A stretch of DNA of 64,000 bases. It comes from Naematelia aurantialba. Lineage: Eukaryota; Basidiomycota; Tremellomycetes; Tremellales; Naemateliaceae. The notes beneath the pieces were generated by a model. It was not told where the DNA came from and searched no databases. It saw only the letters and a program-made list of their open reading frames with translations. Position 1 is the first letter of the stretch, and each line of letters begins with the position of its first letter. This document shows, piece after piece, positions 1,238-20,858 of this stretch. The stretch spans positions 1 to 64,000 of the forward strand of contig JAKFAO010000011.1 in NCBI GenBank assembly GCA_021527695.1, in the 5' to 3' direction. The position numbers and the translations under genes are program-made.

Positions 1238-3040
1238 ATGAATAAAACGCGCATCATCATGCCAATTGCTACCGATTCAAATGACGATCCCGCCTTTTGG
1301 CAGGCTGCGAGTGATCACCTCATTCGTTGTGGAGGGAGTTTTTCTCCTCGGATCATTGTTGAAGCCCAAGGCTGTGTTTTGCGCGTAAGTAACAAAGTCC
1401 TCTTCTATGGGTGATTAAATGTGACACTCATACTTTTGTGTTGTAGGACCGAAATGGAGCAGAGATCCTCGACTTTACATCCGGACAAATGTCGTCTTTA
1501 CTTGGACAGTGAATCTCATTCTCTCTCTAATCCGGGCTCATGGCTCTATATCAGGGAGTGACGCCGATTAGCTCGCACCCTGCCCTGGTCAAAGCTGCCA
1601 CTCGTAGCATGTCAAAGCTGGATCATCTGTACTCTGGAATGCTCAGTGATCCAGTTGTGGACTTCGGAATAATGCTCTCATCTCTTCTACCTGCCCAGTT
1701 ATGCAAGTCTGCTTTCCTCAGCACGGGGGGAGAAGCGAACGAAGCGGCCCTCAAGATGGCTAAGCTTTATACCGGCAAGTATGAGGTAGTAGCATTTTCT
1801 GCTAGTTGGCGTGAGTTTACCCATCCCGTTGTGATGGCAGTAGAACTCAGCTGAAGGGTGTTTGTTAGATGGAATGACTCAGGGGGTATCATCCGCCACT
1901 TACTCTGCTGGGCGTAAAGGTGAGTTATAAGCACCACCTAGGGCTACAACAGTTGATTACTGCCGACACCAGGTTATGGCCCGGCTATACCTGGACAGTT
2001 CGCTCTGCCCACTCCATATGCCTATCGATCGGTCTTCAGACTCCCTGATGGTACACATGACTGGCGCAAAGAACTGGACTTCGGATGGGACATGATTGAC
2101 CGTGAGTCAGGTCGTTATATCTTCACATCTGCTTAGACCTCTGATACACAGTCCAGGCCAGAGCAATGGATCACTTGCCTGCTGCATTATCGAACCTATC
2201 CTCAGCTCTGGAGGTATCATCGAGCTACCCGACGGGTACTTGAAAGCACTGAAGGATCATTGTAAAGCCAGAGGGATGCTATTGATTCTCGACGAGGCTC
2301 AGACTGGCGCTGGACGAACAGGAGGTAAGCTGAGAAGTGGTGTTTCAGAATCATTGCAAGAGCTGAATTCGATATCTGAACAGACATGTTTGCCTTTCAG
2401 AAGGAAGGTGTCGTCCCGGATATCTTAACCCTCTCCAAGACATTAGGAGGCGGGCTTCCTTTGTCTGCAGTGGTAACTTCTGCCGAAATTGAGCAAGTGT
2501 GTCACGAACGCGGTTTCCTATTCTACACGACCCATCTATACGACCCATTACCTGCTGCTGTAGGTCTTGAGGTGCTCAAAGTCGTAGTGGAAGAAAGATT
2601 AGATTTGAGGGCAGCTGCTGCGGGACGTCGACTAAGGGCAGGCTTACTCGAGGTCAGTGATCTCTGGTCCCGACCGGCATCATTTCCCTAACAATATGGC
2701 AGTTGCAGCAAAAATATGACTGCGTCGGCGACGTTCGTGGCAGAGGTCTTCTCCAAGGGGTGGAGATTGTGCTTGATCGCAATAAGCGTACCCCAGGTGA
2801 TGAGCTTGGAAGGTGAGTGATCGTTAAAGAAAATAACAGCGTTATGTTCAGAGCTGATCGGTCGATTCCCACCTAAGTGCTATCTCCAGCAAGTGCCTCG
2901 AGCTTGGTCTTTCAATGAATATCGTACAGCTACCAGGCATGGGAGGAGTGTTCCGTATTGCTCCGCCTTTGACGATCAGTGATGAGCAGATAGATACGGG
3001 TCTACGTATCCTCGACCAGGCTATCGCTTCCTGTGTGTAG
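1238..3040 (+). CDS. 2,2-dialkylglycine decarboxylase-like class III aminotransferase
   Basis: A PLP enzyme of fold type I, expected to decarboxylate and transaminate alpha,alpha-dialkyl amino acids such as 2-aminoisobutyrate. Nine exons join cleanly: 1238-1384, 1447-1508, 1572-1810, 1869-1919, 1973-2101, 2157-2324, 2384-2652, 2703-2812, 2890-3040. They give 441 aa against about 433 in the bacterial enzyme. The sequence keeps DFTSGQM (Gln about residue 63, equivalent to Gln52 of the Burkholderia enzyme), SWHGMT (Trp138 equivalent), LDEAQTG (PLP Asp), the PLP lysine in [10 protein letters not shown], and [13 protein letters not shown] (Arg406 equivalent). Similarity is collinear to the C terminus. 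ATG at 1238 is preferred; 1259 is a second in-frame ATG. This is the most telomere-proximal gene, 1.1 kb from the repeats. An ordinary omega-aminotransferase is less likely because the decarboxylase-specific Gln is present. Confidence 0.88.
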
Positions 3041-3470
3041 ATATCAGTCATACTGTCATGCATCTCTCAGATCAGACAACTTGTAATCTCAATCAAACGA
3101 AAGGACACGTAAGTAAACTGCCTATACTACGCATGGACCAGCTATTTCCTCGAACCCGCTCGCTTGGTCAGGGATCGCTTGACCTGCTGCTCACAAAGGC
3201 TGATGATCCTTGTTGATGTTTGATGTTGATGAAGTGCTCGAGTTTCTTTGTATCTCGGCTGTCATCAGCCAATGCTCATGGGCCATGTGTTTCGGTGCCT
3301 TAGCTAATCCTCTGTAGAGAAGTCAAGAGAAGTGGATCATATTTGACACTCATTTCATCTGTATCATCTCCGTCAAAGGCGTGATGAGCTTTTTGAGATT
3401 TACAACGAGTTCTTGAGTTCTATTGCAGTCGCCTGACAGCCGACCCACGCCGAACACCATCCTCAGCAAC
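3041..3470. other. Convergent intergenic spacer
   Basis: This spacer separates the decarboxylase-like gene from the convergent permease gene. It should contain both 3' UTRs. No coding or repeat signal was seen. Confidence 0.5.
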
Positions 3471-19386: not shown

Positions 19387-19644
19387 GTAGATACTTTGTT
19401 GGGGGGATGCAAGCCTTACATGCAATGTCATCTCATTCACTGCCTGGTTCCCTATGTTCGGAGCACCGACGAGACCGCCTCGATAAGGCCGTTGCGTTCC
19501 CTGAGAAGAGTTTGCCGGCGGCGAGTAAGCGGCAAACCAATGCCCAGACACCCTTACTCTAAAGTATTTTATAACCCTCCGCCCTTGCGGAGAGATCCTG
19601 CATCCGACCAGGGGATAAGCCGTTCGGCTCACAAGTCAAACATC

Positions 19645-20858
19645 ATGGCGCCCATTGCCACCGCTGACATGTCTGTCCCGTCCAGCACTACCCACCAGAG
19701 CACGGCCGACTTGTCCAAGAACCCGCTCGAACGCACTTGGCGCGGGAACAAGCAGGGCACGCTGAGTATCCAAGGATACCCTGCATTCTACAACGCGACG
19801 GATGAAGAGGGGCTGTTACAGAAGAGACAGTGGATCAAGGAGCACTTGGCTTGCGCTTTTCGCTTTTGGGGGAAATTGGGATATGGAGAGGGTATCAGGT
19901 TAGTTCCAGGTGACATCGGTCCTGGTTGGTATACTAATGTCTGATGTAGTGGCCACATTACAGTCCGGGATCCAATCCTGAGGGATCATTTCTGGATGAA
20001 TCCATTTGGAACTCACTTTTCTGCGATGACGGTATCTAAGTTGGTCCTGGTTACGCCTGATGGCTACGTTCATCCGACTCTCGGCGCTCAGCTGCCCATC
20101 AACGTGAGCCCTCATTGTCTTGCACCGAGTATACCCCCCTGTGATTTTGTGATGAAGCGAGCGGAATGCAGGCGCTGAGATGAGCCAGATGGCCGGCTTT
20201 TACATTCACTCTGCCATCCACCACGCTCGGCCAGAGGTCGAGGCGGCCGGACATTGTCATTCCCTCCACGGCAAAGCCTGGTCTGCATTTGGCCGGCCTG
20301 TCGATATCACTACGCAAGACTCATGTCTATTTTATGACAACCAGGCTGTGTATCATAACTTTGGGGGGATCGTGAGTCTCATTCGGCGATCGTGCAGACC
20401 CACCACTTCGCTGTCCAATGTTTTATGTCCGATAGCTTTGGCATCGTTCCTGTTAACTCACGCACATTAATCTTCCAGGTCCTCGCCGCCGAGGAAGGCC
20501 GAAACATCGCTGCTGCTCTAGGCCCTCGTAACAAGTGTTGTATCCTTCAGAATCATGGACTCCTTACCCTGGGTGCGACAGTGGACGAATGCGCATATCT
20601 GTTCTCGGCTCTCGACAAACAATGCAGGGTTCAACTCATGCTCGAGGCGGCCGAGGCTAGTGGTATTAAGAAGACGGTAATCGCGGACCAAGACGCCGAA
20701 TTTACGGCCAATACGATTCAATAGTGAGTCTGCCTGCCCGATATGCTGTTCTATAGTTGAGAACGAAGACTGACGGAGCCAGCCACGAGAACGTCTACTA
20801 TAATCTCCATCCCGAGGTCGAGCTCATCAAGGAACAAGAACCAGGTGTTCTTCTTTGA
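19645..20858 (+). CDS. Class II aldolase/adducin-domain protein
   Basis: A zinc-dependent class II aldolase fold, cytosolic. Five exons: 19645-19898, 19950-20103, 20189-20371, 20479-20723, 20783-20858, giving 303 aa. Visible features: GISGHITVRDP at the start of the domain, a zinc-binding HxH in AGHCHSLHGKAWS, and ILQNHGLLTLG supplying the further His. The N-terminal 60 residues, with LERTWRG and GYPAF, are typical of fungal members. Family reactions are aldol cleavages or decarboxylations of small sugar acids; the substrate here is unknown. It lies tandem 258 bp behind the hydantoinase. The C-terminal end is short, so another small exon is possible. Confidence 0.83.

Follow-up and report, generated by a model that had tools for sequence, protein, structure and literature searches.

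Two probable neighboring nitrogen-use modules, one of hydantoin type, at a chromosome end of Naematelia aurantialba

Contig C3 of Naematelia aurantialba encodes, within its first 64 kb (positions 1 to 64000, referred to below as the window; the genome comprises 21.0 Mb in 15 contigs), an Asp/Glu/hydantoin-racemase family protein, an N-carbamoyl-D-amino-acid hydrolase (carbamoylase), a D-hydantoinase/dihydropyrimidinase, and a 2,2-dialkylglycine decarboxylase (DGD). These genes probably form two neighboring subtelomeric nitrogen-use modules, a hydantoin-type module and a DGD module. In the best reading of the sequences, the racemase, carbamoylase, and hydantoinase would constitute one conserved fungal hydantoin-type module, a counterpart of the bacterial D-hydantoin operon. 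Four lines of evidence point to this reading: conserved linkage, carbamoylase-racemase fusions, the bacterial operon itself, and the retained catalytic residues. We infer the substrates, stereochemistry, transport, and regulation, as well as the separate action of the two modules.

The contig end opens with 13.5 copies of the telomere repeat ACCCCCTA, which fill bases 1 to 107, so the gene island is subtelomeric, as the initial annotation had proposed. On the opposite strand, the eight-base unit reads TTAGGGGG. The racemase gene (11116..11829, plus strand; 1 exon, 237 aa; PF01177) is followed by the carbamoylase gene (11944..13191, minus strand; 6 exons, 336 aa; PF00795) and the hydantoinase gene (17513..19280, plus strand; 7 exons, 484 aa; PF01979). 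These genes and the DGD gene were spliced by hand with GT-AG introns of 42 to 77 bases and contain no internal stops. The stretch from the racemase start to the hydantoinase end measures 8.2 kb and includes a gene for a Zn2Cys6 transcription factor (14321..16971, plus strand; inner exons approximate), which is divergent from the carbamoylase gene; the initial annotation had given 8.3 kb for this group. The three enzyme families stand side by side, as in the bacterial type of arrangement. Under uniform placement, two given genes would both lie no more than 8.2 kb from a third with a probability of ~6e-7.

In the hydantoin-type module, which would span about 8.5 to 19.3 kb, a permease would import a hydantoin or an N-carbamoyl amino acid. 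The racemase would swap the enantiomers of a 5-monosubstituted hydantoin by means of its two cysteines, the hydantoinase would open the ring D-selectively to yield an N-carbamoyl-D-amino acid, and the carbamoylase would free the D-amino acid together with CO2 and ammonia. The Zn2Cys6 factor probably activates the genes of this module. In the DGD module (1.2 to 3.0 kb, perhaps with the adjacent permease), DGD would decarboxylate 2-aminoisobutyrate or isovaline and transfer the amino group to pyruvate.

The linkage of hydantoinase and carbamoylase genes was judged by species, contig size, and locus tags across the best 120 carbamoylase and the best 120 hydantoinase matches. Among the matches listed, the two genes appear linked in 10 of the 11 comparable basidiomycetes. 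They are found on same-sized contigs, with closely spaced locus tags, in Sporobolomyces koalae (JCM15063_005606/005608, 2 apart), S. salmoneus (JCM6883_002271/002274, 3 apart), and Rhodosporidiobolus poonsookiae (JCM10207_002955/002950, 5 apart). In R. nylandii, the tags are 4 apart (JCM10213_000884/000888) and the listed longest contigs differ. Equal contig size alone indicates linkage in Kwoniella shivajii, Tremellales sp. Uapishka_1, Phellopilus, Dendrothele, Stereum, and Rhodotorula kratochvilovae, whose locus tags come from two strains. In Pseudohyphozyma, the two genes are on different contigs. The count of 11 leaves aside species present in one list only (e.g., K. dejecticola, K. pini, Kwoniella sp. 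CBS 9459, and Naematelia) and two undecidable cases, R. toruloides (contigs of 1,462,557 and 1,462,336 bases) and S. pararoseus (two strains). The linked pair spans what we take to be Tremellomycetes, Microbotryomycetes, and Agaricomycetes.

Three of the best 120 carbamoylase matches, P0066 (Friedmanniomyces), P0100 (Colletotrichum), and P0099, consist of a carbamoylase followed by a racemase domain (PF01177); P0099 groups with P0066 in the carbamoylase tree. The fused racemase domains keep both cysteines and show 29 to 35% identity to the window racemase in blastp. These fusions could be merged gene predictions, but even then the two genes would be neighbors. Relatives longer than 1.75 times the query were excluded from this comparison, so that longer fusions would escape it. 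Another relative, P0064 (586 aa), contains two carbamoylase-like halves in tandem. The fusions and the linked pair also bear on the possibility that the window genes are chance neighbors, or remnants left at an unstable chromosome end, with no function in common. Subtelomeres do gather odd genes, and a second DGD copy on contig C15 has decayed, but the reading frames in the window are unbroken with their catalytic residues kept, and chance would have to account for the linkage in the other basidiomycetes and for the fusions, which makes this explanation very improbable.

The linked pair in three classes of Basidiomycota, together with fusions in two ascomycetes and one further relative, would mean that fungi possess an old D-amino-acid route. 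Such a route would be open to test in ordinary yeasts, such as Rhodotorula and Kwoniella, and would add enzymes for D-amino-acid synthesis. On the D-amino-acid oxidase side, 14 stretches of the genome match PF01266.

The carbamoylase scores 224 bits with N-carbamoyl-D-amino-acid hydrolase and 69 bits with the next group. Its Glu-Lys-Cys triad aligns as Glu47, Lys127, and Cys183, at what we take to be the catalytic positions of the family. Searches of the N. aurantialba genome (six frames, E values up to 0.001, best candidates) found no further carbamoylase match. The closest proteins among the matches listed are from Kwoniella, Saitozyma, and Tremellales sp. Uapishka_1 (78 to 83% identity). 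Residue 146 is Gln, as it is in 37 of 38 fungal rows of the alignment (the window protein included), whereas the equivalent residue in the 23 bacterial rows is His in 17, Asn in 4, and Gln in 2. The window protein therefore lacks a His at the position of the bacterial His144, a residue whose number and role we assume here. This His may not be a defining feature, because the bacterial members themselves vary at this position, and Gln146 of the fungal carbamoylases is a possible specificity switch.

The hydantoinase scores 502 bits with the D-hydantoinase model TIGR02033, above its cutoff of 393. Residues His65, His67, Lys157, His189, His245, and Asp322 align with identical residues in the structures 1nfg and 2fty; we take these to be the metal ligands, including the carboxylated lysine. 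The enzyme is best read as a hydantoinase that would act D-selectively on hydantoins. The same genome search yields a clear paralogue on contig C12 (1650012-1651863, minus strand), a second gene of the hydantoinase/dihydropyrimidinase family that is 38 to 52% identical by exon, and a weaker relative on C3. In the hydantoinase tree, 20 basidiomycete rows, including the window protein, form one clade (support 99), and linkage is known for 11 of them. This clade is apart from the yeast dihydropyrimidinase, from the C12 paralogue, which thus falls outside the clade of linked basidiomycete hydantoinases, and from another 20 fungal rows that include basidiomycetes (e.g., Suillus). A different family, Hydantoinase_A (PF01968), accounts for 17 matching stretches on C4, C9, C14, and C15, including positions 45 to 57 kb on C4. 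The hydantoinase of the accessible text of the papers on caffeine and Geosmithia belongs to this Hydantoinase_A/B-oxoprolinase family and is different from the family of the window enzyme.

The racemase matches allantoin and hydantoin racemases only weakly. Alignment maps its Cys81, Cys196, and Asn15 to Cys79, Cys184, and Asn12 of KpAllR, described in the part of the source available as two catalytic cysteines and a substrate-binding asparagine (PMC12661438). At the KpAllR contact sites Thr/Ser118 and Thr119, the window protein has Ala and Thr, and 10 bacterial rows have Ala or Ser and Thr, Ile, or Leu. One weak relative (E value of 9e-8) is found in the N. aurantialba genome. The fungal racemase OpaE shares the PF01177 domain and the cysteine pair but acts on peptide intermediates, according to the portion of the report at hand (PMC12661438), and the Asp/Glu racemase family PF01177 is also among the fungal gene transfers described in the accessible part of another report (PMC5169069). 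The words "hydantoinase" and "carbamoyl" are absent from the main texts of both papers.

Several observations weigh against the assignment of these genes to a hydantoin-type module. The racemase and carbamoylase genes are convergent in the window, and the linkage comparison covers the hydantoinase-carbamoylase pair, with the racemase outside it. Coleophoma, the sole comparable ascomycete, has the carbamoylase (BP6252_07940) and hydantoinase (BP6252_13641) genes unlinked, on different-sized contigs. The racemase is only 26 to 36% identical to 15 aligned relatives, and members of its family also act on allantoin or peptides, as stated in the accessible part of the KpAllR source (PMC12661438). 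The top NCBIfam model for the carbamoylase is N-carbamoylputrescine amidase, at 106 bits, far below its cutoff of 410; no D-carbamoylase model is among its NCBIfam matches; and its fungal Gln in place of the bacterial His suggests that its specificity may differ. The top NCBIfam score of the hydantoinase, 618 bits, is with dihydropyrimidinase NF009941 (cutoff, 647), and its best solved relative is the dihydropyrimidinase of L. kluyveri (2fty; 422 bits in two stretches), followed by D-hydantoinases.

The last two matches, along with the membership of the aminotransferase in class III, would fit reductive pyrimidine catabolism, with a dihydropyrimidinase beside a ureidopropionase and an aminotransferase. 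However, the carbon-nitrogen hydrolase is of the D-carbamoylase type, with 224 bits versus 63 bits for 3ivz (labeled nitrilase/beta-ureidopropionase) and 34 bits for beta-ureidopropionase 6ftq; the aminotransferase is DGD; and the tree places the hydantoinase in a clade of basidiomycete proteins, away from the yeast dihydropyrimidinase, which has a long branch of its own. A six-frame genome search with PF01180, whose counts are lower bounds, found a single locus, which by eye looks like the mitochondrial dihydroorotate dehydrogenase; thus, no dihydropyrimidine dehydrogenase is seen that would feed a uracil pathway. A pyrimidine route is accordingly quite unlikely.

The genes could also be the Tremellales version of the DAL cluster of yeast, with an allantoin racemase, an allantoinase, and Dal5-type permeases. 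In the portions of the sources available, that cluster is sub-telomeric and joins the allantoin racemase DCG1, the allantoinase DAL1, and the permease DAL4 (PMC3646786, PMC3419248). As judged from these portions, it is the nearest eukaryotic layout, in which a racemase, a cyclic amidohydrolase, and a permease also occur together near a telomere. The best solved match of the window racemase is the allantoin racemase 5lfd (47 bits), and both permeases match TIGR00893 best. The DAL cluster differs in having an allantoinase in place of a D-hydantoinase, and D-carbamoylase is absent from its gene list as given in those portions. The window hydantoinase scores 237 bits with the allantoinase model TIGR03178, below the cutoff of 358 and far from its 502 bits with D-hydantoinase; a D-carbamoylase has no place in the allantoin route; and no allantoicase or ureidoglycolate gene is among the genes identified at 1 to 24 kb, the genome not having been searched for them. 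Allantoin use is therefore a highly unlikely function of this island.

The bacterial D-hydantoin operon of the Agrobacterium type comprises a D-hydantoinase, an N-carbamoyl-D-amino-acid hydrolase, and a hydantoin racemase, the same three families as in the window. To our knowledge, hydantoin use by means of D-hydantoinase and D-carbamoylase is known from bacteria only, and no description of the hydantoinase, D-carbamoylase, and racemase set in a fungus was found in searches of the open-access literature. The window genes differ from the operon in being eukaryotic, with introns in three of the four, in their location on both strands, in the presence of a Zn2Cys6 factor, in the separate fungal clades to which the hydantoinase and carbamoylase belong, and in the carbamoylase Gln in place of His. 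The bacterial arrangement was surveyed in 289 genomes from one bacterial class, 51 of which encode a carbamoylase at an E value of 1e-50 or better. Twenty-three carbamoylase loci of 4.8 to 20 kb were taken: 20 genomes contributed one locus each, another genome contributed two, and a further genome the last. A hydantoinase-family gene is found in 14 of the 23 and all three families in 10 of the 23; without loci L162 and L169, where the hydantoinase matches are merely 26 to 27% identical, these counts become 12/23 and 9/23.

The trees show no support for a recent transfer of the hydantoinase, carbamoylase, or DGD gene from bacteria, because in each of them a single branch separates the fungal rows from the rest. 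All 42 fungal hydantoinases group together against the bacterial ones (support 100), 38 fungal carbamoylases are split from 23 bacterial ones (100), and 5 fungal DGD rows are split from 55 other rows (99). These are quick, midpoint-rooted trees with SH-aLRT (Shimodaira-Hasegawa-like approximate likelihood ratio test) support only, built from rows hand-picked from the best-120 lists; rows counted as bacterial include metagenome proteins, and long-branched rows are uncertain. The DGD tree includes every third of 80 bacterial DGD loci and no Saccharomyces DGD1. The description of the hydantoinase as "bacterial-type" in the initial annotation suits its chemistry but needs qualification, as the hydantoinase, carbamoylase, and DGD each fall within fungal clades in these trees.

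The DGD gene (1238..3040, plus strand; 9 exons, 441 aa; PF00202) probably represents a separate 2-aminoisobutyrate module. As previously proposed, its intact product is a DGD-like enzyme, with 586 bits to the Burkholderia enzyme 1d7r and 219 bits to the next different enzyme. Residues Gln63, Trp149, Met152, Ser227, Lys284, and Arg414 are all in invariant columns of a 12-row alignment and correspond to Gln52, Trp138, Met141, Ser215, Lys272, and Arg406 of the Burkholderia protein, given as the active-site set in the accessible part of the source (PMC10169451). By analogy with Saccharomyces, which offers the simplest model, the enzyme would act on 2-aminoisobutyrate. In that yeast, the same part of the source describes a subtelomeric DGD1 and a Zn-cluster activator that serve 2-aminoisobutyrate, in a segment that combines DGD, the Zn-cluster factor, and a putative permease (DGD1-DGD2-permease; PMC10169451). 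The window DGD shares the subtelomeric location and the identical active-site residues and would extend this published trait to the Tremellales. In contrast to the segment as described there, no Zn-cluster gene was identified right beside the window DGD; the closest that was identified belongs to the hydantoin gene group, with its start at a distance of 11 kb. No other DGD copy in the genome looked intact. On C15 (1376184-1377818, minus strand) lies a second DGD that by eye appears decayed: Glu stands in place of the catalytic lysine, an in-frame stop follows, and the frames are shifted; in the tree, where it covers 23% of the columns, it is closest to the Kwoniella shandongensis type.

The initial annotation had joined DGD to the hydantoinase and carbamoylase in a pathway for 5,5-dialkylhydantoins: after ring opening and loss of the carbamoyl group, DGD would decarboxylate the resulting dialkylglycine, and the overall products would be a ketone, CO2, ammonia, and alanine. 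For such a pathway speak the intact DGD, hydantoinase, and carbamoylase genes within 18.1 kb and the status of the window DGD as the sole intact-looking copy. The distance of DGD alone has a probability of about 0.0017 under uniform placement, but for a gene near a telomere the appropriate null would be one chromosome end among ~28, or about 0.04, if 14 chromosomes are assumed. In Uapishka_1, the DGD relatives P0121 (79% identity) and P0156 are on contigs of 12,641 and 52,754 bases, both different from the 76,217-base contig that carries the hydantoinase and carbamoylase genes; with contigs this short, nearness stays conceivable. A link of DGD to the hydantoinase-carbamoylase pair is not supported. 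Several Kwoniella and Saitozyma species in the carbamoylase list have no DGD among the best 120 DGD matches, which include 3 entries named as fungal; more distant ones lie beyond that range.

Bacterial loci are likewise unmixed. True DGD is found in 0 of the 23 carbamoylase loci, the match of L164 to DGD at 26% identity being taken for another aminotransferase. Bacterial DGD loci number at least 588, and 80 of them were retained with flanks of up to 10 kb, which contig ends shorten in some cases; carbamoylase and racemase are each found in 0 of these 80 at an E value of 1e-4, and a hydantoinase-family gene is found in one (L072). Furthermore, D-hydantoinases presumably prefer 5-monosubstituted rings, and a symmetrical 5,5-disubstituted ring needs no racemase. 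The joint pathway is therefore unlikely, as is the origin it would imply, in which a hydantoin module long present in fungi would have been brought together at the telomere with a subtelomeric DGD. No open-access paper was found that mentions dimethylhydantoin together with hydantoinase. Separate modules are favored because of the Uapishka_1 contigs, the unmixed bacterial loci, and the subtelomeric 2-aminoisobutyrate DGD published for Saccharomyces, as far as that source is accessible. What stands of the earlier proposal is the trio as a module. Its statement that it knew of no described eukaryotic cluster with this combination needs qualification, since the DAL cluster and the Saccharomyces DGD segment, in the available portions of the sources, are partly alike.

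The Zn2Cys6 factor scores 20.0 bits with PF00172, just below the cutoff of 21, and its six cysteines fit what we take to be the family spacing. A second Zn2Cys6-like gene at 45664-48000 (minus strand) scores 17.0 bits, also below the cutoff. CCG-N-CGG motifs are found at 8373, 10760, 13294, 17416, and 19515, before permease 2, the racemase, the carbamoylase/factor pair, the hydantoinase, and an aldolase, and are missing upstream of DGD and permease 1. The second spacing, CGGCGG/CCGCCG, likewise occurs in 5 of 7 upstream regions, including that of DGD. Nevertheless, shuffled sequences do as well or better (at least 5 regions) in 86 of 300 cases, so the two spacings provide no signal of a shared Zn2Cys6-type upstream motif in the seven regions.

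Both permeases of the island, noted previously, match MFS PF07690. Permease 1 (3471..5624, minus strand; several exons, inner boundaries partly fixed) is tail-to-tail with DGD; for the profile scans, its open stretches were put together by visual inspection, and the unspliced stretches still contain stops. Permease 2 (8560 to about 10284, plus strand; 5 exons, 508 aa) adjoins the racemase gene. Their best NCBIfam match is TIGR00893 (2A0114), at 139 and 148 bits versus a cutoff of 395, a transporter family of which Dal5 is, we believe, a member.

The models of permease 1, the Zn2Cys6 gene, and the remaining genes of the island are approximate, with partial splicing. These include a phytanoyl-CoA-dioxygenase-like protein (6595..7700, minus strand; PF05721; gene ends approximate), a class II aldolase-family protein (19645..20844, plus strand; PF00596), and an HpcH/HpaI aldolase-family protein (22859..23961, minus strand; PF03328). 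Farther from the telomere, the window contains an FAD monooxygenase-like gene (PF01494) at 28917-29845 on the plus strand.

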